A DNA stretch of 64,000 nucleotides from Parabacteroides distasonis. GTDB lineage: Bacteria; Bacteroidota; Bacteroidia; Bacteroidales; Tannerellaceae. Shown piece after piece: positions 2,175 through 63,836 of the stretch. Numbering within the stretch: position 1 is the stretch's first letter; each line of letters starts with the position of its first letter. Made by a program: the position numbers and the translations under genes. The notes below the pieces were generated by a model, which saw only the letters and a program-made list of their open reading frames with translations, was not told the origin of the DNA and ran no database searches. Location: assembly GCF_004793765.1 (NCBI RefSeq), contig NZ_SRYM01000018.1, positions 1 through 64,000 on the forward strand, given 5' to 3'.

Positions 2175-3215
2175 TCAGAAATATTTGGTGATTGCCGCTT
2201 GCTTGAAACTATGCATCTCGTTGATCATGCGAACGGCGGAGTCGAGTATCGGGTAAGCGCATACCGAGCCGGAGCCTTCTCCCAGCCGTAGCCCTAGATC
2301 GAGCAATGCTTTTGCCCCCAAGAAATCCAGTATCCGTTTATGCCCGGCCTCGTCGCCGCAATGCCCGAATACGCAATACGATTGCATTTCCGGATATAAA
2401 CGGGAAGCCACCAATACGCAATTCGTCATGATAAAACCATCCACGAGGATAATCATCTTCAGTTCGGCGGCACGTAACATGCCTCCTACAGCCATAACCA
2501 TCTCATACCCTCCGAAGTAGCGCATTACATCCAAGACGCTTCCATCCCCCTTGTAATTCTCCAACGAGCGTTTCAGTACGTTGTATTTATGCCGTACGCC
2601 TTCGCTGTCCAGTCCGCTACCGGCTCCCACACAGTCGATCAATGGGATTTGCGTGAGGCAAGTCATCCACATGCTGGAAGCCGCCGTATTCCCGATACCC
2701 ATCTCTCCGAAACTGATCACGTTACAGCCTTCATTGTAACAATCCGTCACGATATCGGCTCCGTATTGAAGGGCTTTCTCCATCTCCTCCACGGTCATGG
2801 CCGCCTCGTGAAGGAAGTTACGGGTTCCTCCCTTGCGCACCTTGCGGTTGATGAGTTGGGGGATAACGGGGAAATCGAAATCCACGCCGCCATCCACGAT
2901 CTTCAACTCAAAACCATGCTGGCGTGCAAGGTAACAAACTCCCGCTCCTCCGTTCAAGAAATTATGGATCACTTGGCGAGTTACCTCCTTGGGAGATTTG
3001 CTTACGCCCTCGTCGGCGATGCCGTGATCCGAGGCATAGATTACGTTCACGGGATGACGCAAGACTGGCGATAAGGTCTGCTGGATCAATCCCACTTGCA
3101 GGGCGAGCGCCTCGAGCGTTCCCAATGAGCCTTTCGGCTTTGTCAGATTATCGATCTTGTCTTGTAAAGCGGCCTCCAGCCCTTTGTCCGGGGCCTCGAT
3201 GTGAAATTGTATCAT
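2175..3215 (-). CDS. cobT: Nicotinate-nucleotide--dimethylbenzimidazole phosphoribosyltransferase
   Basis: Makes alpha-ribazole phosphate from nicotinate mononucleotide and a lower-ligand base. The 346-residue protein has the family motifs [12 protein letters not shown] near residues 61-72 and [14 protein letters not shown] around 167-180. A C-terminal [10 protein letters not shown] contains the Glu used as general base in the family. Length matches well-studied CobT proteins. It sits between cobU and cobS with 1 bp to cobS and about 30 bp to cobU. Which base is activated cannot be read from the sequence. Confidence 0.95.
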
Positions 3216-3245
3216 GATAGTAGTATTTTATATAAGTCGTTGTTC

Positions 3246-3761
3246 TTATTCCTTGATCTTGACGGGGATTCCGCTGACCATCAAGACAACCTCGTCCGCC
3301 TTCGAGGAGATGTATTGGTTGAGCCAGCCTTGCATATCGGTAAATTTCCGTTGCACCTCGTCTATCGGCACACCTCCCATACCCAACTCATTTGTCACGA
3401 AGATCAGGCAGGCATCTTGCCGGGAGAGTTTATCGAACTCCGCTTTCAGGAGGGAGAGGGATAATTCCACGTCGCTTTGATTATCGAAGAAGAAGTTCGT
3501 CCCCCAAAGGGTTACACAATCGATCACCACGACACGACTGGTAAGATCGTGGCGGCTCAAGTATTTCTCTTCCTCTATATTGGTCCACTCGGGTCCACGG
3601 TCTCGCTGATGGCGTTCCACCCGCTTCCGGAACTCCTCGTCCCAGATGCGGGAGGTAGCTAGGTAAACCGGGTTGGGCGACAGCGATAAGGCGAGCCGCT
3701 GGGCGTATCCGCTCTTGCCGGACCGCTGTCCTCCGGTTACTAAGATCACTTTCTTACTCAT
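3246..3761 (-). CDS. cobU: Adenosylcobinamide kinase / adenosylcobinamide-phosphate guanylyltransferase
   Basis: Bifunctional enzyme that phosphorylates adenosylcobinamide and then transfers GMP to give adenosylcobinamide-GDP. The start chosen is MSKKVILVTGGQRSGKSG at 3761. A purine-rich GGAGGC lies just upstream, and the P-loop GGQRSGKS falls at residues 10-17 as in the family. The His that becomes guanylylated in this family is probably His51 (ERHQRDRG). A longer ORF upstream is possible but would place 12 extra residues before the P-loop. The start overlaps the end of the preceding S4-protein gene by 8 bp, consistent with coupled translation. Confidence 0.93.
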   Translation of the reverse strand: MSKKVILVTGGQRSGKSGYAQRLALSLSPNPVYLATSRIWDEEFRKRVERHQRDRGPEWTNIEEEKYLSRHDLTSRVVVIDCVTLWGTNFFFDNQSDVELSLSLLKAEFDKLSRQDACLIFVTNELGMGGVPIDEVQRKFTDMQGWLNQYISSKADEVVLMVSGIPVKIKE

Positions 3762-4332
3762 AGCCTCCGTGATTCCTGTTTTTCCGGTGGGCGGCACGTT
3801 TCGCCTTGTTGATCGGGTTGTTCTTGCTCGTCTTCCGAAGGGTGGCCGATTTCGGGTTGGCGGCGATTCGTTGTGCCACCGCCGATTTTCTCAGAGCCTT
3901 TCCGAACTTAGGGCGCAAGGCATCCCGCAATAATTTCTCCTCATCGGTAAGTTTGGCGGTCTTGGGTTTCCAGCCTCCCTCTTTCTGCGCCTTACGGGCG
4001 GCTGCGTATTTATTGAATTTTCCGAACTTCTCCATTTTGGCACCTCCTCGGCCTCCCTTGTTTTCGGGTTTCGCTTTCCGGAGCGTGCCGAGTAACTCCT
4101 TCTCTTGCTGCTCTTCTTTTTTCGCCTCCTCTTGCAGGCGGATGTACTTCTCTACGTTCAAGCGCTCGCCATCCACCAATACGAGATCCTCCGCCGTGAC
4201 CTTCTGGCCTACGTGCGGTTGCTTGCCGTTTACGGTTACCCGTTCCATCTCGATGAAATTGTCCGCTTCCCGGCGTGAGCAGACACCGGCTTCGCTTATC
4301 AGTTTGTTTAATCTAATTTCCATATTATTCAT
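3754..4332 (-). CDS. S4-domain RNA-binding protein embedded in the cobalamin operon
   Basis: The first 50 residues form an S4 RNA-binding domain of the RsuA/RluF pseudouridine-synthase type (RLNKLISEAGVCSRREAD, then VTVNGKQPHVG). The catalytic pseudouridine-synthase domain is absent. The rest is a lysine- and arginine-rich tail with alanine-rich helical stretches, ending RKNRNHGGYE. It is therefore probably a ribosome- or RNA-binding accessory protein, not an enzyme. Either the first Met (4332) or the Met three codons later may be the start. It lies 1 bp after cbiB and overlaps cobU by 8 bp. Nothing in its sequence links it to cobalamin chemistry. Confidence 0.85.
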   Translation of the reverse strand: MNNMEIRLNKLISEAGVCSRREADNFIEMERVTVNGKQPHVGQKVTAEDLVLVDGERLNVEKYIRLQEEAKKEEQQEKELLGTLRKAKPENKGGRGGAKMEKFGKFNKYAAARKAQKEGGWKPKTAKLTDEEKLLRDALRPKFGKALRKSAVAQRIAANPKSATLRKTSKNNPINKAKRAAHRKNRNHGGYE

Positions 4333-4333
4333 A

Positions 4334-5293
4334 TTATATTATTACTAAAATAAGGGTGACGATCACACCCATCAACAATTCCGTATTGCTATTCACTTGA
4401 ATGGCGATACGCATATCCTCGGTCGTGAACGGCCTTGCGTTCGTTCCGATATAAGGCTTCTCCACCGGTTTGCCGAAATAATCGTGCGTCCCTCCGAACT
4501 GGCAATCCAAGATGGCCGCCAAGGCCGCTTCCGGATAACCGGAATTGGGGCTTGCATGTTCAGGGCCGAAACGCCGTACGAAATCCCTTTTCCCCCAATT
4601 ATTGGAGACCAACAACATCAAATAGGCCGTGAGGCGGGCCGGGATGTAATTGGCGATATCGTCGATTTGCGCCGCTATCCGTCCGAACTCAAGGTAACGA
4701 TCATTCTTATAACCGATCATCGAGTCCAGCGTGTTCACCATCTTGTAAGCCATCATCCCCGGAAACCCCAGCAGGGCGAACCAAAACATCGGGGCGATTA
4801 CGCCGTCGCTTAAGTTCTCGGACAAGGTCTCCAACGCCGCCGCCCGTATCTCTTGCGGAGACAGGTTCGAGGTATCCCTCCCCACGATCCGTGCCACTTG
4901 CCGCCGTCCTTCTTCCGTGCTACGGTCCACGGCCTCGAACACCGCCTTCACTTCCTTGATAAGCGTCTTTCCGGACAGGCAATAAAATACGCCGACAGCC
5001 GTCAGCAACCCACTGAACTGCGGATGTATGATCCAAGCCCACGACAATATCCACTCGCAGATTAAATACACGCCAAGGATAAGCACGACTGCCAGTATAC
5101 CGCCTTTTAGGACCCGCTCGGAGCCTTTATTCAACGCTTTCTCTCCGGCGCTGATCGCTTTGCCAAACCATACGATCGGATGGGGCCAACCTTCCGGGTC
5201 TCCCAGCAACCGGTCGGATAACCAACCGCCCAAAAAGGGCACGATCTTGAGTAAATTGATAGAATGATGTAACCAATACATATTGAATGTCAT
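4334..5293 (-). CDS. cbiB: Adenosylcobinamide-phosphate synthase (CbiB/CobD)
   Basis: Membrane enzyme that attaches the aminopropanol arm to adenosylcobyric acid. The sequence has the family opening DRLLGDPEGWPHPIVWFGK. Several hydrophobic segments follow, then RIVGRDTSNLSPQEIRAAALETLSENLSDG in the middle, and a C-terminal membrane anchor. The start is uncertain. A longer ORF begins at 5326, Met at 5293 is used here, and Met at 5281 is also possible. A TAAGTTTG promoter-like box on the minus strand at 5302-5309 favours one of the two later starts. First gene of the operon. No cobalamin riboswitch core is visible upstream. Confidence 0.9.
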   Translation of the reverse strand: MTFNMYWLHHSINLLKIVPFLGGWLSDRLLGDPEGWPHPIVWFGKAISAGEKALNKGSERVLKGGILAVVLILGVYLICEWILSWAWIIHPQFSGLLTAVGVFYCLSGKTLIKEVKAVFEAVDRSTEEGRRQVARIVGRDTSNLSPQEIRAAALETLSENLSDGVIAPMFWFALLGFPGMMAYKMVNTLDSMIGYKNDRYLEFGRIAAQIDDIANYIPARLTAYLMLLVSNNWGKRDFVRRFGPEHASPNSGYPEAALAAILDCQFGGTHDYFGKPVEKPYIGTNARPFTTEDMRIAIQVNSNTELLMGVIVTLILVII

Positions 5294-5301
5294 TGAAGGA
5301 A

Positions 5302-5309
5302 CAAACTTA
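5302..5309 (-). promoter_or_regulatory. Candidate -7 box for the cobalamin operon
   Basis: On the minus strand this reads TAAGTTTG, a match to the Bacteroidetes -7 consensus TAnnTTTG. No good -33 TTTG is found 19-20 bp upstream, so it is tentative. If used, the leader is very short and cbiB would start at 5293 or 5281. Confidence 0.35.
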
Positions 5310-5326
5310 GACAAAAAAAAGAACAT

Positions 5327-5674
5327 AAGGAAGCGGTAAGCGATTCTTCATCACACATTAGGCGAAAGAAACCTACATTTAAAGGATTTCGAGCGTAGAC
5401 TTTCATCTTCTATCAGCCGTTAAACGATCTTCCACCATCCGTTGCATGATCTTCTAACAGTTGGTGGATGATCATACAACGGATGGTAGAAGATGAATAG
5501 GTACGGAGAAAACGGCTAAAGGATGCCTTTAGAAACCTTAAATCTTTGGGAAGGGAGGGCTTGATATACGGGGGATTCCTTTTAATTTTGTATTTATTAA
5601 CAAGAAATGCGCCCTTACGGCCGGTTATTATTACTTTATTTGCTCCCACCGTATCGTGAAAGGAGTTAATCGAG
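5327..5674. other. Divergent intergenic region, cbiB / sigma-sulfatase ORF
   Basis: About 350 bp between two divergent genes. It holds a 92-bp array of 22-bp units in both orientations (5404-5495) and otherwise shows no gene, tRNA or riboswitch. Short open frames across it are not convincing as proteins. Confidence 0.7.
5404..5495. repeat. Array A: 22-bp units in both orientations
   Basis: The core (C/G)ATCTTC(T/C)A begins at 5404, 5426 and 5448, exactly 22 bp apart. The reverse-complement core occurs at 5485-5495 and, in altered form, at 5463-5473, again 22 bp apart. Unit 5426-5447 and the reverse complement of 5474-5495 agree at 18 of 22 positions. The whole block can fold into one long imperfect hairpin. 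The unit sequence is not seen in the other arrays of the window. Confidence 0.8.
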
Positions 5675-11951: not shown

Positions 11952-14492
11952 GTGGATCGTAAAACTTACACTTTTGACGAAGCGTTTAAGGCTTCATTGG
12001 ATTACTTTACCGGTGATGAGCTCGCCGCTAAAGTATGGGTAAATAAATATGCCTTGAAGGATGCGTTTGGAAATATCTATGAGAAATCTCCGAATGATAT
12101 GCATCATCGCTTGGCAAGTGAGATTACCCGTGTGGAAAAAAAGTATCCGAATCCGTTGTCGGAACAAGAACTTTTCGACCTGTTTGATCATTTCCGTTAT
12201 ATTGTTCCGCAAGGAAGTCCGATGACGGGAATTGGCAATGATTATCAAATTGCCTCACTCTCTAATTGTTTTGTTATTGGATTGGACGGACAAGCGGATT
12301 CATATGGTGCGATTATCCGTATTGACGAAGAACAGGTACAATTGATGAAGCGTCGTGGTGGTGTAGGTCATGATCTTTCCCATATCCGCCCGAAAGGTTC
12401 TCCGGTTAAGAATTCAGCGTTGACTTCTACCGGATTGGTTCCGTTTATGGAACGCTACTCGAATTCCACCCGTGAAGTAGCCCAAGATGGCCGTCGTGGA
12501 GCTTTGATGTTGAGCGTTTCTATTAAGCATCCAGACTCGGAGGCATTTATTGACGCTAAGATGACGGAGGGTAAGGTTACAGGTGCAAATGTGTCTGTGA
12601 AGATTGATGATGATTTCATGAATGCCGCAGTTAATGGTGGTACCTATAAGCAACAATATCCAATTGATTCGGATTCTCCCGTTTATGTAAAGGATATCGA
12701 TGCTTCAGGCTTATGGAAAAAAATTATTCATAATGCTTGGAAATCCGCTGAACCAGGTGTGTTATTCTGGGACACGATCTTACGTGAGTCTGTACCAGAC
12801 TGCTATGCGGATTTGGGATTCCGTACGGTTTCTACAAATCCTTGTGGTGAGATACCTCTTTGTCCGTATGATAGCTGCCGTTTGCTAGCGATCAATTTAT
12901 ATTCATATGTGGTAAATCCATTCACTCCGGATGCTTATTTCGATTATGATTTGTTTAAGAAGCATGTAGGTTTGGCCCAGCGGATTATGGATGATATCAT
13001 TGATTTGGAATCGGAGAAGATCGAGATGATTTTGGGTAAGATCGACTCGGATCCGGAATCCATGGAGGTAAGACAAACAGAGCGTCATTTGTGGGAAAAG
13101 ATCCAACGGAAGACTTTGCAAGGACGTCGTACAGGTGTGGGTATCACGGCGGAAGGTGATATGATTGCTGCTTTAGGCCTACGTTATGGAACAGAAGAAG
13201 CAACCGATTGCGCAGAACTTATACAGAAAACGTTAGCTTTGGCTGCTTATCGTTCATCCGTAATGTTGGCGAAAGAACGGGGCGCTTTTGAAATCTTTGA
13301 TGCGAAACGTGAGGAAAAGAACCCATTCATCAACCGTTTGCGTGAGGCTGATCCTGCTTTATATGAGGATATGTTGAAATATGGCCGTCGTAATATCGCT
13401 TGCTTAACAATCGCTCCGACAGGAACGACTAGCTTGATGACACAGACCACTTCCGGTATAGAGCCGGTATTCTTGCCGGTATATAAGCGTCGTCGCAAAG
13501 TAAACCCGAATGATTCCGAAGCTCGTGTGGACTTCGTGGATGAGACTGGTGACGCTTTCGAGGAGTATATCGTATTCCATCATAAGTTCGTAACATGGAT
13601 GCAAGCGAATGGTTATTCGACGAATAAGAAATATACACAAGAAGAAGTGGAGGAGCTAGTTGCTAAGTCTCCTTATTATAAAGCGACTTCTAATGATGTC
13701 GATTGGTTACAAAAAGTCCGTATGCAAGGACGCATCCAGAAATGGGTGGATCATTCTATCAGCGTAACGATCAATTTGCCGAATGATGTAAGTGAGGAAT
13801 TGGTAGACTCTTTGTATGTTGAGGCATGGAGATGCGGATGTAAAGGATGTACGGTTTATCGGGATGGTTCTCGTTCCGGTGTCTTGATCGCTACGGATAA
13901 AAAGAAGAAAAAAGAGGATTGCAACTGCATGCAACCACCGGTTATCGTATCTACCCGTCCTCGTGAATTGGATGCGGATGTGGTAAAATTCCAGAATAAC
14001 CGTGAGAAATGGATCGCTTTCGTAGGTTTGCTGAACGGACGTCCGTATGAGATCTTTACGGGCTTGGCTGATGACGAAGAGGGTATCATGTTACCCAAAA
14101 ACGTATCTAAGGGGGCGATTATCAAGAGCTATGATGAGGATGGAAATAAGCATTACGACTTCCAATTCAAGAATAAACGCGGTTATAAGATGACAATCGA
14201 GGGCTTGGATGGTAAGTTTAATCCGGAATATTGGAACTACGCTAAATTGATCTCCGGTGTGCTCCGTTACGGAATGCCTATCGATCAGGTTATAAAACTT
14301 GTACAGGGTATGGAGTTGAATAGCGAGTCTATCAATACTTGGAAGAATGGGGTGGAACGGGCCTTGAAGAAATATTTACCGAACGGCATGGAAGCGAAAG
14401 GACAGAAATGCCCGAACTGTGGGTTGGAGACTTTGATTTATCAAGAAGGTTGCTTGATCTGTACGAATTGTGGAGCTTCTAAATGCGGTTAA
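11952..14492 (+). CDS. nrdJ: Adenosylcobalamin-dependent ribonucleoside-diphosphate reductase (class II)
   Basis: Makes deoxyribonucleotides using adenosylcobalamin as radical source, without oxygen. The 846-residue protein starts at GTG 11952 (MDRKTYTFDEAF). Conserved points are SNCFVIGLDG with the first redox Cys, VQLMKRRGGVGHDLSHIRP, and the catalytic-loop motif STNPCGEIPL. It also has ITAEGDMIAALGLRYG and the C-terminal CGCKGCTVYRDGSRSGVL. The very end is a zinc ribbon with two Cys pairs (CPNC and CTNC), common in this subgroup. Genes that complete the cofactor lie 6.6 kb away (888-5293). The glucanotransferase gene follows after 23 bp. Confidence 0.95.
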   Translation: MDRKTYTFDEAFKASLDYFTGDELAAKVWVNKYALKDAFGNIYEKSPNDMHHRLASEITRVEKKYPNPLSEQELFDLFDHFRYIVPQGSPMTGIGNDYQIASLSNCFVIGLDGQADSYGAIIRIDEEQVQLMKRRGGVGHDLSHIRPKGSPVKNSALTSTGLVPFMERYSNSTREVAQDGRRGALMLSVSIKHPDSEAFIDAKMTEGKVTGANVSVKIDDDFMNAAVNGGTYKQQYPIDSDSPVYVKDIDASGLWKKIIHNAWKSAEPGVLFWDTILRESVPDCYADLGFRTVSTNPCGEIPLCPYDSCRLLAINLYSYVVNPFTPDAYFDYDLFKKHVGLAQRIMDDIIDLESEKIEMILGKIDSDPESMEVRQTERHLWEKIQRKTLQGRRTGVGITAEGDMIAALGLRYGTEEATDCAELIQKTLALAAYRSSVMLAKERGAFEIFDAKREEKNPFINRLREADPALYEDMLKYGRRNIACLTIAPTGTTSLMTQTTSGIEPVFLPVYKRRRKVNPNDSEARVDFVDETGDAFEEYIVFHHKFVTWMQANGYSTNKKYTQEEVEELVAKSPYYKATSNDVDWLQKVRMQGRIQKWVDHSISVTINLPNDVSEELVDSLYVEAWRCGCKGCTVYRDGSRSGVLIATDKKKKKEDCNCMQPPVIVSTRPRELDADVVKFQNNREKWIAFVGLLNGRPYEIFTGLADDEEGIMLPKNVSKGAIIKSYDEDGNKHYDFQFKNKRGYKMTIEGLDGKFNPEYWNYAKLISGVLRYGMPIDQVIKLVQGMELNSESINTWKNGVERALKKYLPNGMEAKGQKCPNCGLETLIYQEGCLICTNCGASKCG

Positions 14493-52833: not shown

Positions 52834-52946
52834 GATATTTGTTTTTCTGCAAATGTAAGTAGACAATCACGAATTAACCGTGTTTTTTGTTGTAATTTAC
52901 TTTTTTTATACGTGAATATTATGAAACAGTATGATTTACGGAGAGT

Positions 52947-53852
52947 ATGCGGATGTATATAGCCCGATTGAGAGAGCAAGGACGTTATTCGTCCGCCAAG
53001 AGTTATCAAGATGCATTGAATTCATTCCTGCGTTTTTGTGGGCAGGAGATGATTCTTTATACCCATATTGACCGGGAAATGCTTTTGAGGTATCAAGACT
53101 ATTTGCGGGACCGGGAGTGCTCGTGGAATACGATATCTACTTATATGCGTAGGATTTGCCGTGTGTATGGATTAGCGATGGAGAATGGGGAGGCTCCTTT
53201 TTCCCGTTATTTGTTCAAGGGGATTTTCATGGGAGTGAAGAGCAAACAGAAGAAGGCGTTGCCTGCGGAATCCTTGCGTTTGTTGATGACAGCTCCGCTG
53301 GCTGCTCCGGAGTTGCGCAAAACACAGCGGGCATTGTGTTTGATGTTCTTGTTTTGTGGTATGGCGTTTGTCGATTTTGCTCATTTGAAAAAGAGTGATA
53401 TCCAGAATGGTGTCTTGAGGTATAACCGCCAGAAGACGGGGACGCCGATGTTGGTCGAGATACAGCCTGTAGCCAAAGAGTTGTTGGCTGCGCTGATGAC
53501 CGACACGTTTCGGGATTCTCCTTATCTATTCACTTTCTTGAGTGGGACGAAAACGGGTGAAGAGGCCTTCCGGGAATATACCTCTGCCTTGGCTGATTTT
53601 AACAGGTCTCTGAAGGAACTGGCAAATACCTGTGGTGTGACGGGAATGGTTACCTCGTATTCGATCCGTCATTCTTTCGCTACGACCTTGAAGGAACAGG
53701 GCGTACCGATTGAGATGATCAGCGAATTGCTAGGACACCAATCGATCAAGACCACGCAAATCTATTTAAAGAGTTTCTCTTTGGATAAGATGTCTGCGGT
53801 GAACAAGGCTTGCTTCGAAAGTATATATAATAAGGTATCAAAGGTGGGGTAG
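52947..53852 (+). CDS. Tyrosine recombinase adjacent to the invertible capsule promoter
   Basis: 301-residue phage-integrase-family recombinase. An N-terminal SAM-like core-binding domain (YSSAKSYQDALNSFLRFCGQ) is followed by the catalytic domain. It has HLKKSDIQNGVLRYNRQKTGTPM (Lys region), SYSIRHSFATTLKEQG (second Arg and His), LLGHQSIKTTQIYL with the late His and the nucleophile Tyr. The first catalytic Arg is not where expected: the segment reads FLFCGMAFVDFAHL. The CTnDOT integrase also lacks this Arg. The gene stops 2 bp before a 26-bp inverted repeat, so it most likely flips the neighbouring promoter segment. Confidence 0.9.
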   Translation: MRMYIARLREQGRYSSAKSYQDALNSFLRFCGQEMILYTHIDREMLLRYQDYLRDRECSWNTISTYMRRICRVYGLAMENGEAPFSRYLFKGIFMGVKSKQKKALPAESLRLLMTAPLAAPELRKTQRALCLMFLFCGMAFVDFAHLKKSDIQNGVLRYNRQKTGTPMLVEIQPVAKELLAALMTDTFRDSPYLFTFLSGTKTGEEAFREYTSALADFNRSLKELANTCGVTGMVTSYSIRHSFATTLKEQGVPIEMISELLGHQSIKTTQIYLKSFSLDKMSAVNKACFESIYNKVSKVG

Positions 53853-53854
53853 GC

Positions 53855-53880
53855 GATCGGCTACTTGGGAAGTAGCGTAA
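53855..53880. repeat. Left 26-bp inverted repeat of the invertible segment
   Basis: Perfect inverse complement of 54143-54168; the match ends exactly at both outer bases. Inside it, GCTACTT (53860-53866) and AAGTAGC (53870-53876) form inverted arms around GGG, the layout of a tyrosine-recombinase core site with an asymmetric centre. Confidence 0.93.
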
Positions 53881-53883
53881 AAG

Positions 53884-53907
53884 AATGGGTAATAATCATT
53901 ACCCATT
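53884..53907. terminator. Hairpin 1 inside the invertible segment
   Basis: AATGGGTAAT, loop AATC, ATTACCCATT: a perfect 10-bp stem directly after the left repeat. Probably ends the recombinase transcript in this orientation. Confidence 0.6.
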
Positions 53908-53916
53908 TGAAGGGAT

Positions 53917-53938
53917 GAGATGGGGTATGCCCCGTCTC
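53917..53938. terminator. Hairpin 2 inside the invertible segment
   Basis: GAGATGGGG and CCCCGTCTC form a GC-rich stem with one T-G pair around loop TATG. No long T run follows, so termination is uncertain. After inversion it would lie just upstream of the capsule genes. Confidence 0.5.
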
Positions 53939-54072
53939 TATACTTAATGTTTGTAGATTTGGGGGAGTGACGTGATGATGCTGGAAATATGAGGTCGTTT
54001 CGTCTCTATTGTCGTGTTCATACACATACGAATAGAAACGAAAAATCAAGGAAAAATAAATTCAGAAAACAA

Positions 54073-54130
54073 ACAAAGCCTACACAAAGCCTGAAAATTG
54101 TTTGTTATTCGGTGTTTTTTACTAAATTTG
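54073..54130 (+). promoter_or_regulatory. Capsule-locus promoter with upstream direct repeats
   Basis: TTTG at 54101-54104, 18-bp spacer, TAAATTTG at 54123-54130: a good Bacteroidetes promoter, 12 bp inside the right inverted repeat and reading rightward. Two exact ACAAAGCCT copies at 54073-54081 and 54084-54092 lie one helical turn apart, just upstream of the -33 element, as expected of an activator site. Confidence 0.82.
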
Positions 54131-54142
54131 CGGCGTGGAAGA

Positions 54143-54168
54143 TTACGCTACTTCCCAAGTAGCCGATC
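54143..54168. repeat. Right 26-bp inverted repeat of the invertible segment
   Basis: Perfect inverse complement of 53855-53880, with the same arms GCTACTT (54147-54153) and AAGTAGC (54157-54163) around CCC. The 135 bp from here to the next gene form the untranslated leader of the capsule transcript, where UpxY-type antiterminators are known to act. Confidence 0.93.
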
Positions 54169-54303
54169 TTTCCCGTCCCGATAGAAGAGATATTGATATG
54201 GTTTCTATTGCTTTTAAATTTTCGGGAATAGAAAAGGGTATTTGATTTAAGTATTGATTATCAGTGTATTAATAGAATACGCTGATATGGCATTGAAGTA
54301 TCT

Positions 54304-55359
54304 ATGGGTCATGATCTTCCCCCTTTACCATTGCGTGATGTCCACACCGTAAGATGGTATGTGTTATCTCTTCCTGCTTGTCATAAAGGCCCTGTCAAGG
54401 GTTTGGAGAAGGAGTTGGATCGCAGGGTGCGTTGGGGTGAGCCTACGTTCGATTTTTTCGCCCCCTCTTTCGTGGAGATGCACCGCCGTGAGGGGCGTTT
54501 GGTGGAGACTCACCGTCCGTTACTCTATAATTACGTGTTTATCCGCTCCTCTGTGTATGAGATCTTCCGTTTGAAACGGGATTTCCCCTTGTATAATTTC
54601 CTGCCTAGCGTGGATGGCCGTGGCTCATATCCTTTTGTCTCCGATCGTGAGATGGAAAACTTGCGTTGGGTGGCCCGTTCTTACTCGGATGAACTTCCTG
54701 TATATGTGCCGGAAGCGGGTTATTTGCGTAAAGGTGACCGGATACGCATCACGGATGGCCGTTTCAAGGGTGTTGAGGCAAGCGTGGTGATACAGCCCGG
54801 TGTCGGCGAACGGGAGGTGATGGTATGCGTGGACAACTGGATGTGGGTTCCCCTGTTGCGTGTTCAGCCGGGTGAATATGAGGTGATCGGTTTGGCCGAG
54901 GAGGGCAAGCATGTATATACTCGTTTGGACAATTCCCGGATACAAAATGGTCTCCATGAGGCGTTGGGCCGTCATTGGGGAGATTGTGGTGTTACGGCTG
55001 CCGATCGTGAGCTGGCGACCGAGACCTTGCGTGCCTATGGGGAGTTACAGCTGGATTCGGCCGTGATGCGTTGCAAGCTCTATTCCCTCTTGTTGCCCGC
55101 CTATACGATACTAGGGGACGAGGAGCGGCAAAAGTCGTTGATCGGAACGATCGTCTCGTTCCTACCCTTGATCCGTGCGGAGCAGTCGTTGGCATTATTA
55201 CTACTTACGCTTTATGGCTGTACGGATAGCAGTATCTATTATTATCGTGCGCACGAGTTGATCGATCCGTGGAGTCGGGAATCCTCCCCGAAGAAGAGTA
55301 AATTATCCTTGATCCGTCGGTTAGCCGACTACGACCGCTGGCTGAAACATAATTCATAA
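54304..55359 (+). CDS. UpxY-family transcription antiterminator, long form
   Basis: 351 residues. The N-terminal NusG-like domain (VRWYVLSLPACHKGPVKGLEKEL, then FFAPSFVEMHRREGRLVETHRPLLYNYVFIRSS) spans about 15-120. A KOW motif lies near 140-155 (GYLRKGDRIRITDGRFKGVEASVV). B. fragilis UpxY proteins are about half this length; here some 150 extra residues follow, mostly helical (RELATETLRAYGELQLDSAVMRCKLYSLLLPAYTILG). The product should load on RNA polymerase in the leader and allow transcription through this locus. First gene after the invertible promoter. Confidence 0.88.
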   Translation: MGHDLPPLPLRDVHTVRWYVLSLPACHKGPVKGLEKELDRRVRWGEPTFDFFAPSFVEMHRREGRLVETHRPLLYNYVFIRSSVYEIFRLKRDFPLYNFLPSVDGRGSYPFVSDREMENLRWVARSYSDELPVYVPEAGYLRKGDRIRITDGRFKGVEASVVIQPGVGEREVMVCVDNWMWVPLLRVQPGEYEVIGLAEEGKHVYTRLDNSRIQNGLHEALGRHWGDCGVTAADRELATETLRAYGELQLDSAVMRCKLYSLLLPAYTILGDEERQKSLIGTIVSFLPLIRAEQSLALLLLTLYGCTDSSIYYYRAHELIDPWSRESSPKKSKLSLIRRLADYDRWLKHNS

Positions 55360-55370
55360 TTCAAAAAGAA

Positions 55371-55751
55371 ATGTCTTCCCTTCCCGCTGGTGTTCGCTTG
55401 GTCGCATTGCTAAACGAACACCTGAATGAGATCATGGATCGTGAGCGCACGAACCGTACCTCGATCCATTTATATTGTACGGGTCCTTATTGGGTGGCTT
55501 TCGAGCGTTCTGCCTATCAGTTGTGTCTCACTTTTCCGGATAGCGAGATCACGCCGCTGCGCCTGTTCGCTTACCCGTTCCCGATCGTGATGGTGTCCGT
55601 GACGGATCGCTCGTTGCGTTCGTACGCCCGTAAACATATTTTGAGGCGGGACGAGACAGATTACGTGGTGCTGACCGTCCCCGAATCCTCCTCGACCGAC
55701 TACCGAAGATGGCATGCCGGTGAGGTGGAGGGCTTGCCCCAGCTGACATGA
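55371..55751 (+). CDS. Small protein in the UpxZ position
   Basis: 126 residues, soluble, starting MSSLPAGVRLVALLNEHLNEIMDRERTNRTSIHLY. The sequence has an alpha-beta layout with YPFPIVMVSVTDRSLRSYARKHILRRDE. Capsule loci of Bacteroidales carry a upxZ gene directly after upxY whose product blocks UpxY proteins of other loci. This gene has the position and roughly the size, but I cannot confirm sequence membership. It starts 11 bp after the UpxY-like gene. Confidence 0.6.
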   Translation: MSSLPAGVRLVALLNEHLNEIMDRERTNRTSIHLYCTGPYWVAFERSAYQLCLTFPDSEITPLRLFAYPFPIVMVSVTDRSLRSYARKHILRRDETDYVVLTVPESSSTDYRRWHAGEVEGLPQLT

Positions 55752-55767
55752 ACCAAAAATTTTATTC

Positions 55768-57681
55768 ATGATGAACCTTTTTTCTAAACTCTCAACGTGG
55801 TATTTCTCAAGGAAAGCGTTGCCGTATTGGAGCATTATCCTGTTGGATTGCTTGGTGATCCTGTTTTCAGGTTTGCTGGTATATGCGTTGAATAATGGTA
55901 TCTTCGCCACGATGGGTATCTTCTGGCACCTGTCGCTCACGTGGGGTGTTTGTTTGGTGCCTTATCTGTTGGGCTTCAGGTTGTTCCGTACGTATTCGGG
56001 CATCATTCGCTACTCTTCCTTCGTGGATTTGCAGCGGGTGGGCTTCGCCGTGCTGTTCGGTGCGGTTTGCGTAGTGGCCTTCCAAGAGCTTACGGACTTC
56101 TCGCCTTACTTGGTGTATATCCGTAAACGGGATCTTGTGTTATCCTCCCTGCTGGCGATGAGCTTGATGTGGGCGCTGCGTGTGTTCGTGAAATACTTCT
56201 ACGTGACGACCTTCCGTCAGTCGAAGGCTAAGCGCGCCTTTATCTTTGGCGTGAAGCAAGGCGGTATCAGTCTGGCGAAGAGTATCCAGAATCAGGATCC
56301 TGCGCAATATGTGCTGGCAGGCTTTGTCTCGGAGGCCGGGAACATGCAGAATCGTATATTGATGGGAGTGCGTGTATACCCTTTTGATGAGGAGTTGATC
56401 GATACCATGTGCCGGGAGCGGGCGACGATCCTTTTCGTCTCTCCTTTGAAGAGCGACTCCATCCGGGAACAGCCGGATATGGTGGCTCGTCTGGTGGAGG
56501 CGGGGATTAAGATCTACGTGACGCCGGCGGCGCAAGAATGGGACGGAAAGAGCGATTTGACGCATACGCAACTCCGGATGGTGGAGATCGAGGATCTGCT
56601 TCCCCGGGAAAAGATAGAGATAGACATGGAGGCGGTGGGTCGCTTGCTTCGTGGTCAACGCATCCTGATAACGGGAGCCGCCGGCAGCATTGGTGGCGAG
56701 ATGGTGCGCCAGATCGCCTCGTTCGCTCCGGATCGTTTGATCTTGGTAGATCAGGCGGAGACTCCCTTGCACGACATCCGCTTGATGATGGCGAGGGATT
56801 GGCGGGATATCAACGCCTATACCTTGGTGGCGGACATCGCTAACAAGTCTCGCATGGAGGAGATCTTCTCGGAGCATCGTCCCGCCTATGTATTCCATGC
56901 GGCGGCTTATAAACACGTTCCGATGATGGAGGATAATCCTTGCGAGAGCGTGGGTAACAACGTGGACGGTACCCGTGTGATCGCCGACTTGGCCGTGAAG
57001 TATGGCACGAGGAAATTCGTGATGATCTCCACGGATAAGGCGGTGAATCCTACGAACGTGATGGGTTGCTCGAAACGTATCTGCGAGATTTACGTGCAGA
57101 GCCTCGACAAGGCGATCAAGGAGGGGTATGTGGAAGGTGTGACGCAGTTCGTTACGACCCGCTTCGGCAACGTACTGGGTTCTAACGGCTCAGTGATTCC
57201 GTTATTCCGTGAACAGATTGCCAAGGGCGGTCCCGTGACAGTGACGCATCCGGATATCATCCGTTTCTTCATGTTGATCCCGGAGGCTTGCCGGTTGGTA
57301 TTGGAGGCAGGTACGATGGGTAACGGTGGGGAGATCTTCGTCTTCGACATGGGCAAGCCCGTGCGTATCATCGACTTGGCGAAACGTATGATCCAGCTCT
57401 CGGGTGCCAAGAACGTAGAGATCCATTTCACCGGTCTTCGTGCTGGTGAGAAACTGTACGAGGAAGTACTGAACGACGAGGAGATCACCTTACCAACTTT
57501 CCATCCGAAGATCAAGATCGCCAAGGTACGGGAGTACGATTATGATACGGTTTGCCAAGATATAGATGAACTCGTTGGGTTAGGCCGCTCGAAGGACGAT
57601 ATGGCCATCGTGGGCAAGATGAAGGCGATCGTCCCCGAGTTTAAGAGCCGGCACTCCAAGTATGAGGTACTGGATAAATAG
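55768..57681 (+). CDS. FlaA1/CapD-type UDP-sugar 4,6-dehydratase/epimerase
   Basis: 637-residue membrane protein. Four to five N-terminal helices (about 15-130), a nucleotide-binding middle domain (about 145-270, AFIFGVKQGGISLAKSI) and a C-terminal SDR domain. The SDR domain shows GAAGSIGGEMVRQ near 302, HAAAYKHVPMMEDNP near 383 and STDKAVNPTNVMGCSKRICE near 420. It is expected to make a 4-keto-6-deoxy or epimerised UDP-HexNAc, often the first sugar of a capsule repeat. Composition resembles the upx genes more than the AT-rich transferases behind. The 290-bp gap after it holds array D. Confidence 0.93.
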   Translation: MMNLFSKLSTWYFSRKALPYWSIILLDCLVILFSGLLVYALNNGIFATMGIFWHLSLTWGVCLVPYLLGFRLFRTYSGIIRYSSFVDLQRVGFAVLFGAVCVVAFQELTDFSPYLVYIRKRDLVLSSLLAMSLMWALRVFVKYFYVTTFRQSKAKRAFIFGVKQGGISLAKSIQNQDPAQYVLAGFVSEAGNMQNRILMGVRVYPFDEELIDTMCRERATILFVSPLKSDSIREQPDMVARLVEAGIKIYVTPAAQEWDGKSDLTHTQLRMVEIEDLLPREKIEIDMEAVGRLLRGQRILITGAAGSIGGEMVRQIASFAPDRLILVDQAETPLHDIRLMMARDWRDINAYTLVADIANKSRMEEIFSEHRPAYVFHAAAYKHVPMMEDNPCESVGNNVDGTRVIADLAVKYGTRKFVMISTDKAVNPTNVMGCSKRICEIYVQSLDKAIKEGYVEGVTQFVTTRFGNVLGSNGSVIPLFREQIAKGGPVTVTHPDIIRFFMLIPEACRLVLEAGTMGNGGEIFVFDMGKPVRIIDLAKRMIQLSGAKNVEIHFTGLRAGEKLYEEVLNDEEITLPTFHPKIKIAKVREYDYDTVCQDIDELVGLGRSKDDMAIVGKMKAIVPEFKSRHSKYEVLDK

Positions 57682-57971: not shown

Positions 57972-59537
57972 ATGGAAGGGCGGCGATTATATCCGATAGG
58001 GATACAGACATTCTCGGAAATCCGAGAGGGTAATTATGTGTATGTTGATAAGACAGCCTTAGTCTATGGAATGACACATGCGGATTCAAAATATGTCTTC
58101 TTGAGTCGTCCTCGTCGTTTCGGAAAGTCGTTGCTTACTTCTACGCTCCATAGTTATTTCGAGGGGTGGAAGGATTTGTTTGAGGGTTTGGCTATCGAGC
58201 GTCTGGAGAAGGAGTGGACAAGTTATCCGGTGCTTCATTTTGACATGAGCACAGCGAAGCATATGGACAAGGATCGGCTTCTGAGTGAGCTGGAGAGGAA
58301 ATTGTATGGTTACGAGCAGATATACGGACGTGATGAGAGCGCTATTTATACGAACCAACGTCTGGAAAGTCTTATCAAACGTGCCTACGCCCAGACCGGT
58401 CTAAAGGTGGTTATCTTGATCGACGAGTACGACGCTCCCTTGCTGGACGTGGTGCATGAGGAGAAGGAGCTGCCGAAGCTTCGCGACGTGATGCGTAACT
58501 TCTATAGTCCGCTTAAAGCCTGCGATCCTTATTTGCGTTTTGTTTTCTTGACCGGAATTACCAAGTTCTCCCAATTGAGCATCTTCAGTGAGTTGAACAA
58601 TATAAAGAACATCAGCATGCTCCCGGAGTACGCCGCCCTCTGTGGCATCACGGAGGAGGAGATGCGTGAGCAGATGGGCGAGGGTATCGGTCGTTTGGCC
58701 GACAACCTCGGCGTTTCTCCGGAGGGTGCCTTGGGTGCCTTGAAATCGAATTATGACGGTTACCATTTCACGTGGCCGTCGCCCGATATATACAACCCGT
58801 TCAGCCTGTTGAACGCCTTGGCCGACAGTAAACTAAATTCCTATTGGTTCGGTAGCGGTACGCCCACCTATTTGATCGAGATGCTGAACAAGTATCACGT
58901 GAAACCCCAGCAAATAGGCGCACGCAAGGTTTTGGCAGAGTCGTTTGACGCACCCACGGAACGGATGGTCGATATTACGCCATTGCTCTATCAGAGCGGT
59001 TACATCACGATAAAGGATTATTCCTCGCTCACGAATTTGTACACGCTCGACATCCCAAACAAGGAGGTACGTATGGGATTGATGAAGAGTTTATTGCCCA
59101 ATTATTTGCATCAATACACAGCGGATGGACTTACTACGGTAGCCCTTCTTTTCGAGGCGATCGCTGGAGAGCGGATGGACGATGCCCTGCGTTTATTGCA
59201 GACCTTCCTGTCCACCCAATGTGACAATACGGATTACGAGGGCCATTATCAGTCCTTGCTTTACACGATCTTCAGCCTGCTAGGAATGTATGTGGACGTG
59301 GAAGTCCGTACCCCGAAAGGCCGTGTGGATATGGTGATGCGCACACCGACAACACTCTATGTCGTGGAATTGAAGTTAAACAAGACTGCGGATATAGCCC
59401 TTGAGCAAATCAATTTGCGCAATTACCCGGAGCGCTTCGCTCTTTGTGGGTTGCCGATCGTAAAGGTTGGAATTAATTTTGATAGTGGGCGGCATACGTT
59501 GGGGGATTGGGTTATTGAGGGTTCTATGTCTTGTTGA
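57972..59537 (+). CDS. AAA-ATPase-like protein with PD-(D/E)XK nuclease-like domain (DUF1703 type)
   Basis: 521 residues. The N-terminal AAA-ATPase_like domain opens RRLYPIGIQTFSEIREGNYVYVDKTALVY. Its P-loop is in FLSRPRRFGKSLLTSTL near residue 46 and the Walker B-like VVILIDEYDAPLLD near 150. The C-terminal part carries the PD-(D/E)XK pattern GRVDMVMRTPTTLYVVELKLNK near 451-470. This large Bacteroidales family occurs in many near-copies per genome; its function is unproven and defence or mobile roles are only suspected. It stands between capsule genes, with array D before it, array E after it and its own promoter. Confidence 0.88.
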   Translation: MEGRRLYPIGIQTFSEIREGNYVYVDKTALVYGMTHADSKYVFLSRPRRFGKSLLTSTLHSYFEGWKDLFEGLAIERLEKEWTSYPVLHFDMSTAKHMDKDRLLSELERKLYGYEQIYGRDESAIYTNQRLESLIKRAYAQTGLKVVILIDEYDAPLLDVVHEEKELPKLRDVMRNFYSPLKACDPYLRFVFLTGITKFSQLSIFSELNNIKNISMLPEYAALCGITEEEMREQMGEGIGRLADNLGVSPEGALGALKSNYDGYHFTWPSPDIYNPFSLLNALADSKLNSYWFGSGTPTYLIEMLNKYHVKPQQIGARKVLAESFDAPTERMVDITPLLYQSGYITIKDYSSLTNLYTLDIPNKEVRMGLMKSLLPNYLHQYTADGLTTVALLFEAIAGERMDDALRLLQTFLSTQCDNTDYEGHYQSLLYTIFSLLGMYVDVEVRTPKGRVDMVMRTPTTLYVVELKLNKTADIALEQINLRNYPERFALCGLPIVKVGINFDSGRHTLGDWVIEGSMSC

Positions 59538-59832: not shown

Positions 59833-60810
59833 ATGAATGTTCCCAAAATCGACATAATTGTACCAGTGTATAATGTCGAACCATATTTGAGAAAATGTGT
59901 TGATTCTTTATTGAATCAAACTTATGATGATTATATAATCTCTTTGGTAGATGATGGTTCTCCTGATGAGTGTCCTGTCATCTGTGATGAATATGCAATC
60001 AACTATCCGGAAAAAATCAGGGTTTATCATAAGCAGAATGGAGGATTATCAGATGCGAGGAATTATGCGGTAGAAAGATCAAAATCGGAGTTTGTGATTT
60101 TTGTGGATTCCGATGATTGGGTATCGGAGCATTTTATTCAGAATCTAGTTGAAGGACTCACCTCTAGTGAAATTGATATGGTAGTTTCTCCATATTACAG
60201 AGCAACAGAAACCTCGGAAGGATTTTCTATATATTTTAATATGTCAACAAAAGCTCCTTGCGCAATGGAAATGGAAGAGGCTTTAGTGGAGTTGTGTAAA
60301 GAAAAATATTATGGAAATCATGCATGGTCTAAACTTTTTCGTTTAGGTTTACTTAAGGTGTATCCTTATCCAAAGGGTAAATATTATGAGGATTCTTATA
60401 CTACATATAAACATATAGCTCATTCAAGGTTGGTGTCGTATGTTTCTACTCCTGGATATTATTATCTTCAACGTAAGGGTAGTATCGTACGTTCTGAATT
60501 TCAGAGAAAGCATCTTGATGTTATTTATGCAACCCAAGAAATGGTAAAGTATATGATTGACAATCATTTTTCTCGGAAAACTATTTCGTTTGGAGTTTAT
60601 AAATTATTAAGAAATGCCCATGCTACATTTATTCATGCTAAGAGAGAGCAAGATTTTGATATAATTTATGATGAGATATTTTTGATTTTGAATCAATATA
60701 AGGAGTATTTTCCTGCTATTAATCAATCGTTGAAAGAAGCGATGATTCATAAACTGATGATGTCTTGTCGTTTATTGTATCATTTTATGATTCTTTATAA
60801 AAAAGAATGA
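59833..60810 (+). CDS. Family 2 glycosyltransferase of the capsule locus
   Basis: 325-residue GT-A transferase. It starts MNVPKIDIIVPVYNVEPYLRKCVDSLLNQT, then SLVDDGSPDECPVICDEYA, LSDARNYAVERSKSEFVIFVDSDDWVS with the metal-binding Asp pair, and HAWSKLFRLGLLK in the acceptor half. It adds one sugar to the lipid-linked repeat unit. From this gene on the DNA is clearly more AT-rich than before, with many AT-ending codons. Confidence 0.92.
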   Translation: MNVPKIDIIVPVYNVEPYLRKCVDSLLNQTYDDYIISLVDDGSPDECPVICDEYAINYPEKIRVYHKQNGGLSDARNYAVERSKSEFVIFVDSDDWVSEHFIQNLVEGLTSSEIDMVVSPYYRATETSEGFSIYFNMSTKAPCAMEMEEALVELCKEKYYGNHAWSKLFRLGLLKVYPYPKGKYYEDSYTTYKHIAHSRLVSYVSTPGYYYLQRKGSIVRSEFQRKHLDVIYATQEMVKYMIDNHFSRKTISFGVYKLLRNAHATFIHAKREQDFDIIYDEIFLILNQYKEYFPAINQSLKEAMIHKLMMSCRLLYHFMILYKKE

Positions 60811-60857
60811 CTGTTATTAATGGTTTGATTGTAATTAATTGAGTTATATTTGATTGT

Positions 60858-62297
60858 ATGATAAGATTAAAGCAATATATAGGGTTTGGACTGTATTTGA
60901 CATTGAACATGTTTTTTATATTGTTTTTTTTGATAGTTCAATCTGACTTTATAATAAGTGGTCTTTTTTTGGTGTGGGCAAATATGACTGTGTATGCTGT
61001 AAGAGACTTGAAATCAAAAGGTATGCTGTTTGCCTTTTGTGTGGCCTTTTTTTCGTTTCTTATGGGTAGGCATTTGTTATCTTATTATTTTAATTATGAA
61101 GTAGAGGTCTTTTCTGAGGAGATTAATACACATGCGGAATTATGTATGTTGCTGAGCTTATTGACTGTTTTTTTTTCTTATATATTTTTTTATGTGCGTA
61201 ATAGGAGAAAGAATAAACAGAGTCATGCTGAATATGTTTTACCTGATAGATATATAAAAATTATACGCAAATATTCTCTTAGAATATTTTGGGTTGCTTT
61301 TGTATTCTCTGTGATATATGCGATTTTTATTGTAGTTTTGGTACATACGATAGGCTATTTGGCTAGCTATACGGTCGAAGGAAAGGAGATGATGAGAGGC
61401 AATTATTTATTGTTGACACTCAATAGGATAGAACAGGCTCTTCCTGTTGCTTTTTGTTGTTATCTAGCGACATTTCCTGAAAGAAAGTCGTGTAATAAAA
61501 TCTGTATGTTCTATTTTTTATACTTGGCTCTTACGTTGTTGGGAGGGCAAAGAGGCCCATTCATATTGGGAACCCTATTTTTGATGATATATTATTTTTA
61601 CCGGAATAAGAGAGAGGGTGAAATATGGATAAAGAAAAGTTGGATAAGGATGGGACTGATAGCATTTCCTTTTTTACTTGCCGGATTAGGGATTTTTTCT
61701 AAAATACGAACTGGAGATAAGATCGAATTTAGTAATGTGGGTGATTCTATTGTGGATTTTGTGTATAATAACGGAGTAAGTGTTAATGTAATAAAAAGAT
61801 CTTATGAGTTAGATTCTCGCTTAAGATCAGATCGATTTTATTCATTACATTTTCTTCATGATGGTGTATTTGGATTAGTTTTTGGTTCTGATGGCGCAGG
61901 TAATAATGCGGATAAGGCTACCGAGGGTTATCACCTTGCTCATGCGCTTCCATACTTAATGTTCCGTGATAAATATCTTGAAGGGGCAGGAACAGGTACA
62001 AGCTATATAGCAGAGTTGTATCATGATTTTGGTTATATTGGAATAGTGCTTGGAAATGTGATTTATGGATTTCTGTTGGCCTCATTAGCTAAGTTTGATA
62101 AAAATAAACCCTTTAATACATCGGTTAAACTTTTGATTATAACTCGGCTTCTTTGGGCACCACGTGGAGGATTTACTGAATTTATTACGATATTATCTCT
62201 TCCTGCTACAATTTTTATATATGTCGCTGTTTTTTGGGGTGCATTTTTAGTGTTTAATATTCCACGGAGACGTTATACTAAATTGGGTGTTGGATAA
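60858..62297 (+). CDS. Wzy-type capsular polysaccharide polymerase
   Basis: 479-residue inner membrane protein with about ten to twelve hydrophobic segments and a large polar loop near residues 285-375 (SNVGDSIVDFVYNNGVSVNVIKRSYELDSRLR, then GTGTSYIAELYHDFGYIGIVLGN). This is the O-antigen polymerase layout; the GTSYIAELYHDFGYIG segment resembles the conserved late loop of Bacteroidales Wzy proteins. It joins repeat units on the periplasmic side. Sequence conservation is low in this family, so the call rests on topology and position. Confidence 0.82.
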   Translation: MIRLKQYIGFGLYLTLNMFFILFFLIVQSDFIISGLFLVWANMTVYAVRDLKSKGMLFAFCVAFFSFLMGRHLLSYYFNYEVEVFSEEINTHAELCMLLSLLTVFFSYIFFYVRNRRKNKQSHAEYVLPDRYIKIIRKYSLRIFWVAFVFSVIYAIFIVVLVHTIGYLASYTVEGKEMMRGNYLLLTLNRIEQALPVAFCCYLATFPERKSCNKICMFYFLYLALTLLGGQRGPFILGTLFLMIYYFYRNKREGEIWIKKSWIRMGLIAFPFLLAGLGIFSKIRTGDKIEFSNVGDSIVDFVYNNGVSVNVIKRSYELDSRLRSDRFYSLHFLHDGVFGLVFGSDGAGNNADKATEGYHLAHALPYLMFRDKYLEGAGTGTSYIAELYHDFGYIGIVLGNVIYGFLLASLAKFDKNKPFNTSVKLLIITRLLWAPRGGFTEFITILSLPATIFIYVAVFWGAFLVFNIPRRRYTKLGVG

Positions 62298-62321
62298 AAA
62301 TAATTTTTAATTTTAATAGTT

Positions 62322-63836
62322 GTGAATGTTTCTGAAAACAACAGGCGTATTGCTCGTAATACGTTACTACTTTATGGAAGGAAAGCTGTAACCATGTTGA
62401 TTGCGCTATATTCATCAAGAGTATTGCTGCAATATTTGGGAATTGATGATTTTGGTTTATACGGACTTATAGGTAGTATAATTGCTGTTTTTACGTCACT
62501 CAAATCAACATTCGCCGCATCTGTTCAGAGATTTCTAAATGTAAATAAGGAAGAGAGTATCGCAAGGAAAAATGAAATCTTCTGCATGGGGATGATCATT
62601 CATGTGTTAATTGCGGTTGTCTTTATTCTATTAGCAGAGATTGGAGGTGCGATATTGCTCCCTAATCTTAATTTGAATACTGAAAAACTAATAGTTGCAG
62701 GATGTATACTTCGTTTTACTATCTTGTCGGCAGCAGTTTCTATAATTACAGTTCCTTTTGATGCGCTTGCTATGGCAAATGAGAAATTTGATGCCTTGGC
62801 AGTTATTTCTATTATAGATTCTGTTTTGCGTCTTTGTGTGATATTTATTTTGTCATTTAGTCCGATTCAGAGGGTCGTTTTTTATGCAATATTACTTTTA
62901 TGTGTAACTATTGTACATATTCTTATGATAGGGGGGTATTGTTATAAAACTTTTAAGGATACAGTGAAATTTCATTTTGTAAGGGATAGAGTTTTATTTA
63001 AGCGAATGACCTCTTTCGCAGGATGGAATTTTTTTGGTAATTTAGGATACTATCTAACAAGTGAAGGTGTGAATTTTATTCTTAATATATTTGGTGGAAT
63101 AGTAGCTAATGCTTCACGTACAATCTCTTATCAAGTGAAAAACGCATTACAGACTTTGGTGAATGATATAACTGTTGCTTTTCAGCCTCAGAGTATGATG
63201 GCTTTTTCAACAGATAAACAACGTTTTTATAATCTTCAATTTTTAGCGACAAAAGCAAGATTTGCTATATGCATAGTTTTGGGGTTCCCTTTATTTTTAT
63301 TCATTCCTGAGATTTTGCAAGTTTGGTTGGGAAAACAACCGGAAGGAGCAGCGACCTTTATAAGATGTATTCTATTGTTTGTGGTCATACGTTGTTGGCA
63401 TGATGCTATTGATACAACCTTTAAATCGGCTGCACGTATGCGAAATTATCAAATATGTGAAATGTCTATTATGCTATTTAACTTACCTGTATCTTGGCTT
63501 ATGCTTCATTTGAAATTGCCTCTGTATAGTGTGTTTATAACAATGTCGGTTATTGAATTTGTAAATCTGATAGCAATAATGGTATTGGCATATAAAGAGT
63601 TGGGTTTTATGATAGGGGATTATATTAAGAAAGTAATTATACCTTCGGTATTTATAATTTGTATCATGGGTATAATATTTCTAAGTTATTCTTTTTTTGA
63701 TATACGCCTTTATGGGTGGACAGAGATGTTGCTTTTTTTAATAGTTACATTTATTGTTGCGATTGGTTTGATTTTTATGATCTTGTTTTCTCAGATTGAG
63801 CGAGAGAAATTAGTGTCTATGTTGAAATATAAATAA
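62322..63836 (+). CDS. Wzx-type flippase (polysaccharide biosynthesis protein)
   Basis: 504 residues with about twelve to fourteen membrane helices. Start GTG at 62322 (MNVSENNRRIARNTLLLYGRKAVTMLIALYSSRVLLQYLGIDDFGLYGLIG), the typical opening of Bacteroidales Wzx proteins of the MOP/MATE superfamily. The middle TSFAGWNFFGNLGYYLTSEGVNFILNIFGG is also characteristic. It flips undecaprenyl-linked repeat units to the periplasm for the Wzy polymerase encoded 25 bp before it. Confidence 0.9.
   Translation: MNVSENNRRIARNTLLLYGRKAVTMLIALYSSRVLLQYLGIDDFGLYGLIGSIIAVFTSLKSTFAASVQRFLNVNKEESIARKNEIFCMGMIIHVLIAVVFILLAEIGGAILLPNLNLNTEKLIVAGCILRFTILSAAVSIITVPFDALAMANEKFDALAVISIIDSVLRLCVIFILSFSPIQRVVFYAILLLCVTIVHILMIGGYCYKTFKDTVKFHFVRDRVLFKRMTSFAGWNFFGNLGYYLTSEGVNFILNIFGGIVANASRTISYQVKNALQTLVNDITVAFQPQSMMAFSTDKQRFYNLQFLATKARFAICIVLGFPLFLFIPEILQVWLGKQPEGAATFIRCILLFVVIRCWHDAIDTTFKSAARMRNYQICEMSIMLFNLPVSWLMLHLKLPLYSVFITMSVIEFVNLIAIMVLAYKELGFMIGDYIKKVIIPSVFIICIMGIIFLSYSFFDIRLYGWTEMLLFLIVTFIVAIGLIFMILFSQIEREKLVSMLKYK

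Follow-up and report, generated by a model that had tools for sequence, protein, structure and literature searches.

The window analysed here is a stretch of 64,000 nucleotides from Parabacteroides distasonis (RefSeq assembly GCF_004793765.1, contig NZ_SRYM01000018.1, positions 1 to 64,000 of the forward strand). Between 52947 and 55751 it carries a tyrosine recombinase gene, a promoter segment enclosed by 26-bp inverted repeats, a leader, a gene for a regulator of 351 amino acids (aa) and a second small gene, followed by capsule genes. This locus is very probably a phase-variable capsule switch, with an invertible promoter and an apparently fused regulator.

The recombinase gene (52947-53852, + strand) encodes 301 aa from its listed start and matches the Phage_int_SAM_5 and Phage_integrase family profiles, scoring 64.7 bits against PF00589 (cut-off 27.1) and 57.2 bits against PF13102. 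Residues K163, R241, H264 and Y273, which we take to be catalytic, are among the columns invariant across six paralogues. With the profile above its cut-off and the R-H-Y residues (R241, H264, Y273) kept, the protein belongs to the tyrosine recombinase/phage integrase superfamily. Five close paralogues, 57-68% identical, are encoded in the same genome.

Two base pairs past the recombinase stop begins the left repeat (53855-53880, + strand), whose partner lies at 54143-54168 on the - strand; both are presumed recombination sites. As an earlier note on this DNA had stated, the repeat is perfect: the arms are complementary at 26 of 26 positions and stand 262 bp apart, with an outer length of 314 bp. 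Among perfect inverted repeats of at least 14 bp with arms no more than 600 bp apart, the window holds three, of which this is the longest; in 40 dinucleotide shuffles the longest repeat was 16 bp and 26 bp was reached in 0/40, so that it stands far above chance. A pattern search found the 17-bp core GCTACTTGGGAAGTAGC at 53860-53876 and, inverted, at 54147-54163; it fits the consensus GCTACTYRGNRAGTAGC.

The segment between the repeats (53881-54142) contains a Bacteroides-type promoter, TTTG-N18-TAAATTTG (54101-54130, + strand), located 12 bp inward of the right arm and directed at the regulator gene, where the earlier note had placed it. The window has 8 matches to the pattern TTTGN{17,20}TANNTTTG, where 1.5 would be expected, so a match is no proof by itself; a sigma-70-type scan, blind to TTTG-type promoters, called 2 sites in other parts of the region (1.7 expected). 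Orientation was called with a 20-base promoter probe, by which the segment in the window is ON, again as that note had it. Two palindromes lie within the segment (53884-53938), the second of which (53917-53938) is one copy of a GAGACGGGGC-type repeat dispersed in the genus. Palindromes of the form GAGACGGGGC-RTG-CCCCGTCTC are scattered over many places in two genomes of the genus, G004 and G023, and recur inside invertible segments. No intrinsic terminators were called in the region, the segment palindromes included.

That such segments invert is indicated by the wider module family. A search of 38 genomes of the genus at E 1e-60 found close recombinase relatives in 5, with 25 modules in total; a scan of named genomes turned up 11 loci, of which Parabacteroides sp. 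ZJ-118 and a Parabacteroides metagenome-assembled genome account for 9; by gene positions on the contigs we assign these to G017 and G023. The source genome (G000) has six modules, five with two inverted copies of the dyad core: that of the window (C87) is ON, and C89, C106, C120 and C33 are OFF. The sixth, C109 (L114, site 14108-14124), has a single site, and its antiterminator follows the recombinase without a promoter segment in between; either the segment was truly deleted or the assembly is at fault. Over the whole family 22 of the 25 modules have two sites (8 ON, 14 OFF); the three one-site modules are C109 and two at contig ends of G023. The probe matched 16-20 of 20 positions in 21 of the 22 two-site modules and 12/20 in G018_C40, whose ON call is weak (12 against 10 of 20). 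The latter module (L111) has diverged and its segment measures 122 bp; past its right site no gene of UpxY type was recognised, and the gene there resembles by eye one for an HU-type DNA-binding protein.

For all 97 pairs of homologous segments, including 46 of opposite state, strand agrees with state; since the promoter belongs to the segment, this mainly shows that true homologues lie both ways round. C106 and G017_C52 are one locus seen in two genomes: their flanks are 92% alike over 2.5 kb upstream and 87% alike downstream, and the segment between is inverted at 80%; the probe calls G017_C52 ON, as it does G000_C87 and G004_4643. At the paralogous loci C44 and C36 of G017 the segment is inverted at 98.6%. 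Collinear flanks around a reversed segment are strong evidence that the module family inverts. An enzyme of the integrase superfamily would also suit repeats that are attachment sites of a mobile element and no promoter switch at all, but the sites are inverted, not direct, and in relatives the segment alone is reversed between collinear flanks; moreover, of 158 matches in viral contigs the best 80 included no close relative (at most 34% identity), and the exact 26-mer occurred there 0 times. We rejected this explanation, which is extremely improbable.

At the window's own locus the readable copies are the window and its G004 orthologue, both ON; a third copy, G023_C33, stops just past the left core. 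In G004 about 2.5 kb have been inserted into the segment (L102, about 2930-5490), directly ahead of the promoter. The insertion has open reading frames of 551 and 251 aa and is by eye an IS21-type element; the promoter is near-intact despite it. What sets the window copy apart from the rest of the family is where its recombinase begins. The other modules (24 of 25) have an ATG in frame, 27-36 nt ahead of the first matched residue, from which a conserved, MxxxDFVxGM-like N-terminus is read; in the window copy, the sole exception, the conserved family start (52921-52962, + strand) is out of frame and reaches a stop after 13 codons, so that the protein starts at 52947 or 52953 without the conserved N-terminal residues. 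The complete N-terminus of its close relatives, which does not define the superfamily and bears on activity, is thus missing. The recombinase may have lost about nine residues, or else this spot may be misassembled; the disturbance could be a sequencing error. The earlier note had spoken of an intact recombinase, which is doubtful for this copy.

Judged from the assembled sequence, the enzyme may be weakened or lost in the source isolate and the switch left ON. It is a serious possibility, though the lesser one, that the window copy is a locked relic that no longer switches. The window is alone among the modules in its lost start, and the G004 orthologue is likewise ON with its segment interrupted; but the internal ATG still gives 301 aa with both domains, a paralogue could serve these arms in trans, and the start itself may have been misread. 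A phase-variable switch remains our preferred reading of the locus.

The earlier note described the module as self-contained, its recombinase dedicated to the site. As a statement of physical linkage this was confirmed: in 25/25 modules the start of a site falls in the interval from 16 bp ahead of the recombinase stop to 10 bp beyond it (in C33 the recombinase frame extends into the site, with its stop codon inside). As functional exclusivity it is unsupported. The arms GCTAC(T/C)...(A/G)GTAG are common to the six paralogous modules, the 17-bp core is identical at C87, C89 and C109, and recombinase pairs 99.7%, 94.3% and 93.4% identical adjoin different cores. In the 99.7% pair, G017_C50 and C44, the segments are 44% alike (54% with one inverted), the shuffled background being 44%; C33 and G004_128, with recombinases 98.3% identical, have segments 52% alike, and 208 bp of the C33 segment is 95% like the segment of G004_1873. 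Since near-identical recombinases stand beside unlike segments and cores, exclusive pairing is unsupported; the tie of enzyme to site is physical in all 25 modules and, by these comparisons, appears loose in evolution.

We give somewhat less than an even chance to a scheme of shared enzymes, in which the paralogues serve one another's sites and the neighbouring gene is just the usual source. The common arms, the shared core and the pairs with different cores favour it, but every match to the site pattern GCTACYNNNNNRGTAGC in the 4.2-Mb genome (11 places, against 2 for the reversed control pattern) lies within the six modules and adjoins a recombinase gene, and this lack of orphan sites suggests that each recombinase acts locally. 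In Parabacteroides sp. ZJ-118 the loci L051 and L052 have near-identical recombinases with different segments and downstream sequence, the identity stopping where the left site is reached, as though capsule operons had been exchanged behind a conserved recombinase gene. Exchange of segments between loci by the recombinase was considered for G017_C50 and C44, which diverge at the left site, and was rejected, ordinary homologous recombination explaining the divergence equally well.

The first gene of the operon (54304-55359, + strand) encodes the 351-aa regulator. Its NusG/UpxY-like N-terminal part (residues 36-187) matches the UpxY model NF033644 at 68 bits (E 9.5e-19), under the curated cut-off of 100 bits, so we label the protein UpxY-like only; the earlier note's identification stands as similarity and goes no further. 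With a promoter within repeats, an integrase upstream and a NusG/UpxY-type first capsule gene, the locus is a module of the P. distasonis type, which supports that note's combination of invertible promoter, adjacent tyrosine recombinase and capsule operon. The C-terminal domain (residues ~202-351, 54907-55356), which the note had missed, matches the UpxZ fold (4epz). The regulator looks like a two-domain UpxY-UpxZ fusion, as suggested by several agreeing lines of weak to moderate strength. The B. fragilis UpxY/UpxZ pair resembles it in standing at the head of capsule operons, in the UpxY-like part, in the UpxZ-like fold and in summed lengths, but consists of two proteins where the window has one chain. 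The Pfam UpxZ model PF06603 matched neither the regulator nor 18 C-terminal domains, and by the same model no separate upxZ gene was found in the source genome, in a search whose control also gave no match. The model matched 0/119 genomes of the order; in a set of 393 it matched 16 at E 0.1 and only 1 above cut-off, and may therefore miss much.

The leader of the capsule operon, which spans the interval between right core and start codon (54164-54303, + strand), contains a conserved RNA hairpin (54259-54287, + strand). Of the 25 modules, 17 had a long regulator in reach and supplied leaders; exclusion of the near-copies G004_647 and G004_1578 left 15 for alignment. The hairpin pairs in 89.7% of cells against 82.0% in shuffles (0/500), cells changed on both sides number 15 against 6.7 (0/500) and the covariation score is 0.42 against 0.27 (0/500); controls with the hairpin slid along were 39-52% paired. 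Rfam returned a single match, far below its gathering score. We infer that the hairpin is a candidate recognition element of the antiterminator.

Several points temper these readings. Two hairpin measures are at chance (pairs with both-side change, 166/500; further pair types, 312/500), and kinship alone can lift leader statistics above shuffles without any structure. The regulator is below the curated cut-offs for UpxY and UpxZ alike, the C-terminal domain has near-tied matches and a helical-model caveat, and the uphY-like genes tabulated in the available part of PMC9409006 are of a shorter type, at 179-192 aa. Because of the caveat, the near-ties and these short genes, we go only so far as to favour the view that a single-chain UpxY-UpxZ regulator serves the capsule switches of Parabacteroides; it would activate its own operon via the leader hairpin and inhibit the regulators of other switches. 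For the same reasons a small chance is left to a generic helical (TPR/14-3-3-like) C-terminal module unrelated to UpxZ.

With the fused regulator as the preferred reading, the switch would work as follows. The tyrosine recombinase would recombine the two inverted dyad sites (core GCTACT-5 bp-AGTAGC), flipping the promoter segment. In the ON orientation the promoter would transcribe the hairpin leader, the 351-aa regulator, the 126-aa second protein and the capsule genes. The NusG/UpxY-like part most likely enables RNA polymerase to read through its own operon, and the UpxZ-like domain most likely keeps the regulators of other capsule loci from acting, so that one protein would do both jobs.

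The invertible capsule promoter is ordinary for the genus and already known; the earlier note's module is not supported as a novelty. The available text of PMC12118408 gives, for 10 of 12 capsular polysaccharide (CPS) operons of P. distasonis APCS2/PD, the same 17-bp repeat consensus, a promoter region of 314-345 bp (314 bp in the window), an integrase upstream and a NusG-annotated first gene, and reports that capsule expression in P. distasonis shifts under phage. That text mentions neither a UpxZ-like regulator domain nor a leader hairpin nor a locus-by-locus comparison of orientation. It also describes capsule operons with inner-dyad repeats and an adjacent integrase or tyrosine invertase at B. 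thetaiotaomicron CPS1/3/5/6 and at B. xylanisolvens CPS loci, where the repeats are GTTAC-type, whereas those of the window are GCTAC-type. B. fragilis likewise has invertible polysaccharide promoters, one of them driven by the tyrosine recombinase Tsr19; Mpi, unlike the enzyme of the window, is a single serine-type recombinase for at least thirteen regions (available parts of PMC12632263, PMC5903667 and PMC3090145). In a gut community UpxY genes are enriched near invertons, according to the accessible portion of PMC11892184.

The UpxY-UpxZ fusion is apparently undescribed: passages from several papers that name both proteins mention none, which is no proof of absence in print. If the fusion is real, mutual exclusion of capsule loci would be a property of one polypeptide, and a puzzle stated in the available part of PMC9409006, that no upxZ was found beside P. 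distasonis upxY, would be explained at loci with the long regulator; the shorter uphY-like genes tabulated there leave it covered only in part. It would also provide a simple system for how gut Bacteroidales restrict their capsules to a few at once, with a bearing on phage resistance and colonisation. The disturbed recombinase start and the interrupted G004 segment offer a natural case of a switch possibly fixed ON.

The second gene of the operon (55371-55751, + strand) encodes 126 aa of no known family; it was considered as a UpxZ and rejected (profile E 0.37, PDB profile search empty to E 10, weak fold match). By family profiles the capsule genes that follow encode a Polysacc_synt_2 nucleotide-sugar enzyme (55768-57681, + strand) and a glycosyltransferase 2, a Wzy polymerase and a polysaccharide flippase-type protein (59833-63836, + strand). 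Between them, at 57972-59537, lies an AAA-ATPase-like/PDDEXK_9 gene that is likely an insertion.
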